The position numbers were made by a program, and so were the translations under genes. DNA of 64,000 nt, taken from NCBI RefSeq assembly GCF_008107695.1, contig NZ_VIRG01000070.1:1178001-1242000 (forward strand). The letters are read 5' to 3'. This DNA is from Stappia sp. BW2 (GTDB taxonomy: Bacteria; Pseudomonadota; Alphaproteobacteria; Rhizobiales; Stappiaceae). Under the pieces are notes generated by a model, which did no database searches, was not told the origin of the DNA, and saw only the letters and a list, made by a program, of their open reading frames with translations. Shown here piece after piece: positions 56,423-61,150 of the stretch. Numbering within the stretch: position 1 is the first letter of the stretch; each line of letters starts with the position of its first letter.

Positions 56423-57139
56423 ATGAACATGGCCGTTGACCCCAGCCAGACACCCGGACTGGCACCAGCCGCCCTCCAACTGTCGGGTATTACCCGCAGT
56501 TTTGAAGAGGGGAGCCGCGAACTTCATATATTGAATGGTGCAGAGTTGCGCATCGAGGCAGGTGAGATGGTTGCCCTGGTGGCGCCATCCGGGACCGGCA
56601 AGTCAACCCTGTTGCATATCGCCGGCTTGCTGGAGCGTCCGGACGAGGGCGATGTATTTCTGGGGCCGGTCAATTGCTCCGATCTGTCGGATGACGATCG
56701 TACTGCCATCCGGCGCAACGACATCGGTTTCGTCTATCAGTTCCATCACCTGCTGCCGGAGTTCACCGCGCAGGAGAACGTGATGATGCCGCAAATGATC
56801 CGCGGTCTTTCGCGTAAGATGGCCGCAGAGCGTGCGGACGAACTTCTGAAATACATGCGTCTTGGGGATCGTGGCAGCCACCGCCCGTCCGAGCTTTCCG
56901 GTGGGGAACAGCAGCGGGTTGCCGTTGCACGTGCCGTTGCGAATGCGCCGCGGATCCTCCTTCTGGACGAGCCTACGGGCAACCTGGACCCCAATACAGC
57001 GGGTTACGTGTTCGACGCGTTGCAGGCTTTGGTGCGGGCGTCTGGCGTTGCAACGCTGTTTGCGACCCACAACCTGGAACTGGCGGGCCGCATGGACAGG
57101 GCAATCACGCTCGCCGATGGTCTCGTCAAGGACCTCTAG
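56423..57139 (+). CDS. lolD: Lipoprotein-releasing ABC transporter ATP-binding protein
   Basis: The 238-aa ATPase powers LolC. Walker A is APSGTGKST with Ala at the first position, the signature is [14 protein letters not shown], and Walker B is [23 protein letters not shown] precedes the ATG. Confidence 0.94.
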
Positions 57140-57351
57140 TTTCCCCAAACAGTTCTCTGAAGCCAAAAGTTTCCACTGTGGCTGTGCCTGGCTGTCTTCA
57201 GGTGTTGCTGCGATGAAGAACAAAGCAAAAACTCTCAGTTTTCAGCAAATTTGATTTGTCTGGTGGCAAGAGGAACAAAAAGGGCTTGCAAAGAGAACAA
57301 ATATGGAACATACTCCAATTACGTAATGAGCCAAGGTTGGAGGGTGTGATG
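57140..57351. other. lolD-micropeptide intergenic region with SOS-type promoter
   Basis: It holds no gene. An SOS promoter occupies 57286-57314. The first 140 bp are AT-richer than their surroundings and have no assigned role. Confidence 0.6.
57286..57314 (+). promoter_or_regulatory. Sigma-70 promoter overlapped by a LexA (SOS) box
   Basis: TTGCAA (57286-57291) and CATACT (57309-57314) are separated by 17 nt. Between them lies GAAC-N7-GAAC (57295-57309), the exact direct-repeat LexA box of alphaproteobacteria (GTTC-N7-GTTC on the other strand). A repressor bound here would block RNA polymerase. Confidence 0.75.
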
Positions 57352-57450
57352 ATGATCCATGTCGCTCGTGATTTTGCCGCTTTCGGTGCAATGGTTTGTT
57401 TCTGCACGACGCTTGCCGTCTGGGGCGATGTGTTGCTCTCCGTCGGTTGA
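57352..57450 (+). CDS. SOS-type micropeptide, single-pass membrane protein of 32 aa
   Basis: The frame starts at ATG 57352 (another ATG directly precedes it at 57349), behind a strong GGAGG ribosome site. The peptide has a short N-terminus with one Arg and one Asp and a single hydrophobic helix (about residues 9-30, with two Cys and one Trp). The LexA-overlapped promoter lies about 40 nt upstream. SOS-induced one-helix inhibitors of cell division, such as the 29-aa SidA of Caulobacter, are a precedent; similarity is by size, topology and control only. dnaE follows 196 bp later. Confidence 0.65.
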   Translation: MIHVARDFAAFGAMVCFCTTLAVWGDVLLSVG

Positions 57451-57646
57451 TCCTTTCCGGCTGTGTCAGTCTCGTATCGGCAGCTAATGCCGGTTCGACT
57501 TCATAGTGAACCGGGGCCTATGCCGCCGATGGGGTGGCAGGCCTTGGGGCAAAGAACAGCGGGAACAACTCTCCTGGCGTCTCGACAGGCAATTCTGAAC
57601 GCGCTTCACTTGAGCGCTGATTCTGGAAGATGCTAAGAGAGCCGCC

Positions 57647-61147
<3,501 letters not shown>

Positions 61148-61150
<3 letters not shown>

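Follow-up and report, generated by a model that had tools for sequence, protein, structure and literature searches.

Is a reading frame of 32 or 33 codons, placed behind a LexA box and directly upstream of the replicative polymerase gene dnaE, a functional gene, and if so, what would its product do? This question was raised by a locus of Stappia sp. BW2, located in a stretch of 64,000 nucleotides (nt) of contig NZ_VIRG01000070.1 (positions 1,178,001 to 1,242,000 of the forward strand; the whole stretch is called the window here, and coordinates are counted from its first letter). An original prediction for this DNA had proposed a LexA-controlled membrane micropeptide with a role in a DNA-damage checkpoint. 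Only in a few bacteria is the division checkpoint that responds to DNA damage well understood, and no SOS division inhibitor of the Hyphomicrobiales, the order of the rhizobia and their relatives, which grow from one pole, was found in the open-access literature among the titles listed. The results described below indicated that the frame is a selected coding gene and that the micropeptide is probably a divergent, unannotated orthologue of SidA, the inner-membrane inhibitor of 29 amino acids that halts division in Caulobacter during DNA repair and is described as acting through FtsW (PMC4211646). We regard it as a peptide of the SidA type, and not as a wholly new kind of peptide.

The micropeptide is a conserved coding gene

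The open reading frame (ORF; MIHVARDFAAFGAMVCFCTTLAVWGDVLLSVG) lies on the forward strand and ends with the TGA codon at 57448–57450. Two in-frame ATG codons were found, at 57349 (33 amino acids) and at 57352 (32 amino acids); the 5-nt spacing from the Shine-Dalgarno sequence GGAGG (57339–57343, forward strand, kept in the genus alignment) fits the start at 57349, and the residue count in most relatives fits the start at 57352. The coordinates given by the original prediction, and its description of the box, the GGAGG site and the ORF, were correct in the sequence, the announced one-helix peptide of 32 residues having 32 or 33. When AlphaFold2 was run without an alignment, a single helix was obtained over residues 2–31, with a mean predicted local distance difference test score of 92, and the maximum of hydropathy over 17 residues was 1.9. 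As modelled, the peptide would insert into the membrane.

Conservation of both the box and the frame in relatives, which had been proposed as a check of the prediction, was observed. With the window peptide as a protein query, matches were obtained in 82 of the 87 genomes of the window's family (E ≤ 1), and the family profile A1 matched 86 of the 87 (E ≤ 0.001), one match containing an internal stop codon; this profile was made from 35 peptides chosen for variety from 70 loci of the same genomes that were later searched. Within the genus, the mean entropy at the three codon positions was 0.52, 0.19 and 1.25 bits, respectively. The medians of the nonsynonymous (dN) and synonymous (dS) substitution rates between genus members were 0.13 and 1.2, with a median dN/dS of 0.11, in 191 usable pairs out of 300 (the other 109 were left out because dS was saturated or undefined). 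Furthermore, the genus alignment contained a conserved island running from the operator through the ORF, and beyond the stop codon conservation dropped to 0.0–0.5 per ten bases. These results indicated that the micropeptide is a selected coding gene.

The opposite explanation, a chance ORF standing behind a regulatory site of dnaE and encoding no functional peptide, could draw on the frequency of the box, which is not rare by itself: exact GAAC-N7-GAAC sequences occurred twice in the window, and 2.29 were expected by chance. This explanation is, however, already contradicted by the codon evidence (the entropy pattern and the dN/dS value), and the 86 profile matches and the micro-ORF present in 15 of 15 box-bearing regions of the class (see below) also stand against it, so that we find it hardly credible. 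What goes beyond chance is the combination of box, ORF and conservation, and not the box alone.

The gene had also been predicted to escape routine annotation. Searches of NCBIfam, PHROGs and PADLOC with the window peptide gave no match, and the search of Pfam gave a sub-threshold match to Otopetrin alone (E 0.064). Hence, this is a conserved gene without a name in the annotation models searched.

The LexA box lies within the promoter spacer

The box had been placed exactly between the −35 and −10 elements, and this arrangement was confirmed. The −35 element TTGCAA (57286–57291, forward strand) was found as TTGCAA in 38 of the 45 genus loci and as TTG in all 45, and a putative −10 element, CATACT (57309–57314, forward strand), was deduced from the sequence and the genus loci. 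The LexA box GAACAAATATGGAAC (GAAC-N7-GAAC, 57295–57309, forward strand) is situated inside the 17-nt spacer and overlaps the −10 element by one base. A generic sigma-70 scan listed no promoter at this place (8 of 12 consensus bases, with a threshold of 9), and the assignment of the promoter therefore rests on its conservation.

In the 82 family loci read (L031–L100, L109–L111 and L385–L393), the exact box was present upstream of the frame in 74, which supported the proposed reading of a LexA-controlled membrane micropeptide. These comprised 38 of 45 loci of the genus, all 25 loci of other genera, and 3 of 3 and 8 of 9 in further family loci; each of the seven genus loci lacking the exact box had one mismatch. 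As a control, GAAC-N7-GAAC sites elsewhere in this genome were inspected (the first 30 listed of the 267 found), and a hydrophobic micro-ORF 15–60 nt downstream was observed in none of the 30. Two exact boxes of the kind found before the micropeptide also precede the lexA gene of this genome, and its recA gene has two boxes with one mismatch each. Additionally, the box given for Caulobacter LexA, GTTC-N7-GTTC, is the same motif on the opposite strand (PMC12700426). From these sequence comparisons we infer that LexA binds at 57295–57309.

Relationship of the micropeptide to SidA

Caulobacter genomes were located through PopZ and then through DnaE, and the loci read include those of Caulobacter segnis, C. 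ginsengisoli and C. hibisci; C. crescentus, whose dnaE is CC1926 (PMC1839093), was not one of them. Among the 30 Caulobacteraceae loci read first, 18 had, upstream of dnaE, a box and behind it a peptide of some 29 amino acids; as for the rest, the pattern found no DnaE motif in 2, and 10 had the motif but no exact box within 900 nt. A pattern search of 80 named Caulobacteraceae loci, some of them shortened by contig ends, found the peptide in 60 and the exact box in 63, two sets that can overlap. The curated SidA equivalog NF033228, with a cut-off of 35 bits, recognised these peptides of 29–31 amino acids with scores of 59.7 and 70.8 bits, and all 25 chosen members matched. The SidA-type layout that had been proposed for the window was thus found, with the same place and mostly with the same box, in the SidA loci of the Caulobacteraceae.

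The window peptide and SidA are alike in the LexA box of the promoter, in the place directly upstream of dnaE (in the Caulobacteraceae for SidA), in a length of about 30 amino acids, and in having one hydrophobic helix, which is predicted for the window peptide. The N-terminal pattern A-R-[DE]-x-x-A-[LF]-x-[SA]-x-x-x-F is also common to both. In contrast, the window peptide has 32–33 amino acids and SidA 29, and the second half of the window's family lacks the FVWM-C core of SidA; the curated cut-off is not reached by the window peptide.

When profile A1 was compared by hhalign with the SidA profile A2, made from 25 chosen Caulobacteraceae peptides, a probability of 90 was obtained over residues 1–18, the alignment stopping at residue 18, and this score was equalled by none of 300 full column shuffles. 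Profile A3, made from 15 chosen peptides of other families of the order that had been found with A1, gave a probability of 89 against A2, with 0 of 300 full shuffles and 2 of 300 core-only shuffles as good; none of these 15 members matched NF033228. SidA was the NCBIfam family with the most matches among the 35 members of A1, although with 2 of 35 only and a best E of 0.0032, below the cut-off. The earlier statement that the sequence looks different from that of SidA consequently held in pairwise comparison, in which BLASTP found nothing, and did not hold for the N-terminal half, which matches the SidA profile.

Several results weigh against this relationship. The A1–A2 score was matched by 4 of 300 core-only shuffles, and likeness between short hydrophobic helices can be convergent. 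NF033228 gave no match to the window peptide, and its cut-off was reached in none of the 87 family genomes, C. vibrioides being among the controls that do match; weak matches to this model (E ≤ 1) were detected in 46 of the 87, but only 5 of these fell at the locus itself. BLASTP of the window peptide against a Caulobacter SidA returned nothing at E ≤ 100. Moreover, the C-terminal halves differ, the family having its Trp at residue 24, in WGDVL, whereas SidA has FVWMMC at residues 17–22. Because the C-terminal half, BLASTP and the curated cut-off fail, the case for orthology with SidA is a joint one, built on genomic position, operator, peptide length and the N-terminal half; a divergent relative of SidA is preferred to an analogue because of the N-terminal profile match, the SidA matches in NCBIfam and the shared place before dnaE. 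If the family is SidA-like, a checkpoint peptide becomes directly testable in groups of the Hyphomicrobiales, and the comparison of lineages would reveal which of the approximately 30 helix residues set the divisome target.

Control of dnaE and the possibility of a leader

The dnaE gene, for the DNA polymerase III alpha subunit, extends over 57647–61150 on the forward strand (NCBIfam PRK05673, 1486.5 bits, over the cut-off). The distance from the stop codon of the micropeptide to the DnaE motif varied between 197 and 457 nt across the 45 genus loci, and in the genus alignment the DNA between the ORF and dnaE was unconserved, with the exception of a separate block adjoining dnaE. In the window this second block occupies 57549–57630 (forward strand) and contains a GANTC site at 57619–57623; in 39 of the 45 genus loci, a GANTC lay no further than 150 nt ahead of the DnaE motif. 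GANTC sites are linked to CcrM and GcrA. To judge from its sequence, the second conserved block is probably a separate dnaE promoter, and the nearby GANTC suggests that this promoter is perhaps linked to the cell cycle. With a separate promoter probably available to dnaE, it is the peptide that the LexA box seems to serve in the first place. The place before the polymerase gene had been counted in favour of a checkpoint role; with a conserved upstream block belonging to dnaE, this argument was dropped as not needed.

These observations bear on another explanation, according to which the ORF is a cis-acting leader, that is, an upstream ORF (uORF): the LexA box would induce dnaE, and translation of the peptide would tune dnaE expression. 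The frame does precede dnaE in the same orientation, a simple scan detected no terminator between the two, and dnaE is listed as reported to be SOS-regulated in C. crescentus (PMC3323433). In addition, sORF25 of Sinorhizobium meliloti, detected by ribosome profiling in the 5' untranslated region of dnaE1, is named among possible uORFs (PMC10117765). Nevertheless, the amino acid sequence is kept over the whole helix, the distance to dnaE is variable, and the intervening DNA is unconserved up to the block next to dnaE; for SidA, which has the same place in the Caulobacteraceae, activity in trans from plasmid copies is described in Caulobacter (PMC4211646). A leader function is therefore considered unlikely, and the SidA-like peptide is retained.

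The case of sORF25 is of use for the SidA-like peptide as well. It is alike in being a small ORF directly upstream of dnaE1, with the order taken as the same; it was compared with the window's family by description, and the identity of the two is a lead only. In the main text of PMC10117765, a word search found no SidA, SOS or LexA. If sORF25 belongs to the window's family, translation in a relative has already been shown.

On its other side the micropeptide gene is flanked by lolD (56423–57139, forward strand), whose best NCBIfam match was TIGR02211 (E 1.5e-73, below its cut-off), and the LolC/E permease was over its NCBIfam cut-off.

Proposed mechanism and comparison with other systems

The results above support coding constraint, conservation of the operator, the genomic place, a remote homology with SidA and a single helix, and the action of the SidA-like peptide may be pictured as follows. 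LexA, bound between the −35 and −10 elements, would keep the promoter off; after DNA damage, active RecA would promote the self-cleavage of LexA and the promoter would be released. The strong ribosome site would then allow translation of the single-helix peptide of 32–33 amino acids, which would enter the inner membrane, its basic N-terminal end (ARD) probably remaining inside. By analogy with SidA, the target of the peptide could be the late divisome, namely FtsW together with FtsI and FtsN, so that septal peptidoglycan synthesis would be held off and division blocked during repair. Once repair is complete, LexA would repress the gene again.

FtsW of this genome scored 337.2 bits, just under its cut-off of 337.5 bits. 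The positions of FtsW suppressors were considered and not used; according to the argument of the paper in question, loss of binding is not how the strongest suppressors act.

A one-helix peptide, as predicted here, under a LexA box would also suit an SOS-induced membrane toxin like TisB or DinQ, which would depolarise the membrane and lead to dormancy and would not act on the divisome; the published description of DinQ is that of a toxic peptide with a single transmembrane segment and a link to the SOS response (PMC3567139). Both the remote homology and the position point to SidA instead, and on these two grounds a toxin of this kind seems very unlikely to us.

YneA of Bacillus and SosA of Staphylococcus, set beside the SidA-like peptide by description, are systems that we take to be its analogues. 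Both are presented as SOS-induced division inhibitors (PMC13396833, PMC6851548), and one of the titles states that YneA interacts with FtsW. Caulobacter has a further inhibitor induced by damage, DidA, which is likewise a small membrane protein with one helix and acts on the FtsW/I/N complex (PMC4211646). Unlike the window peptide, with its 32–33 amino acids and LexA box, DidA has 71 amino acids, is SOS-independent and is induced by DriD (PMC4211646).

Phased half-sites and repeated boxes

Apart from the LexA box, an extra GAAC half-site was found at 57273–57276 (forward strand), 22 nt or two helical turns upstream of the box; all 45 genus loci had it, as did 3 of the 25 loci of other genera. 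A degenerate distal box, GAACAAAGCAAAAAC, lies at 57218–57232 (forward strand), 77 nt (7 × 11) upstream; GAAC was observed at −77 in 35 of the 45 genus loci and at −76 in 3 more. The GAAC half-sites between 57218 and 57309 of the window thus keep an 11-base-pair (bp) phase (−77, −22, 0 and +11). Across the genus, 82 of 92 upstream GAAC sequences fell at multiples of 11 bp from the box, counts that are not independent events because the loci are related. The phased half-sites were kept within the genus and mostly not in other genera. They could be an extended LexA operator.

Doubled boxes were also encountered elsewhere. In the window's family, loci L098 and L390 each carry a pair of exact LexA boxes that are offset by 11 nt and have one half-site in common. 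Doubled operators were observed in seven Caulobacteraceae loci (L160, L167, L169, L221, L226, L235 and L240), several of them with boxes 16–25 nt apart. Outside the window, at G000:C17:303092-304963, four GAAC-N7-GAAC matches occur at an exact spacing of 619 bases, three of them identical (GAACAATTAGTGAAC); these matches point to a tandem repeat whose unit contains the motif.

Distribution in the order and the class

Profile matches were obtained in 127 of 297 genomes of the order (E ≤ 0.1), 12 of them from the window's own family; the 127 include weak matches, many of them unchecked. Outside the family, 38 loci were readable (L119, on a short contig, was left out of these counts); the exact upstream box was present in 28, and lolD or dnaE was recognised in 35. 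Among eighteen of these loci (L112–L118 and L120–L130), 11 had the exact box close by; the remaining 7, which all belong to family f44, had a degenerate second half-site. The other 20 comprised 17 with the exact box and 3 with one mismatch.

A profile search of the whole class, with matches in 31 of 385 genomes at E ≤ 0.1, was set aside, the matches being weak, mostly partial and often within longer frames, except for those of the window's own genome and G121. The class was then surveyed by position, upstream of dnaE. For this purpose 88 regions, mainly one per family, were taken from 362 genomes with a DnaE match, from the best matches listed; the window is part of the sample, as are four genomes belonging to a single family. 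Fifteen of the 88 had the exact box within 600 nt, a frequency that is biased because the regions were chosen mainly one per family. All 15 box-bearing regions contained a hydrophobic micro-ORF with its ATG 28–59 nt after the start of the box. The absence of an exact box from the other 73 regions counts against the SidA reading, and the arrangement is therefore patchy or degenerate elsewhere.

With the evidence tipping somewhat in its favour, a wider proposal can be made: SidA would not be peculiar to Caulobacter but a single branch within an ancient and largely unannotated family of membrane micropeptides under LexA control, located before dnaE in several orders of the Alphaproteobacteria. 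The N-terminal half, for membrane entry, would have been kept, and the C-terminal half re-tuned by lineage, perhaps for lineage-specific divisomes including those of the polar-growing Hyphomicrobiales; in the window's genus, the operator would have been extended by GAAC half-sites phased at 11 bp.

A different one-helix peptide, ending in FW[AS]-[ED]-IV...TG, was observed behind a LexA box before dnaE in four loci of one family (L274, L277, L278 and L286). It is possibly a further branch of the micropeptide family or a replacement.
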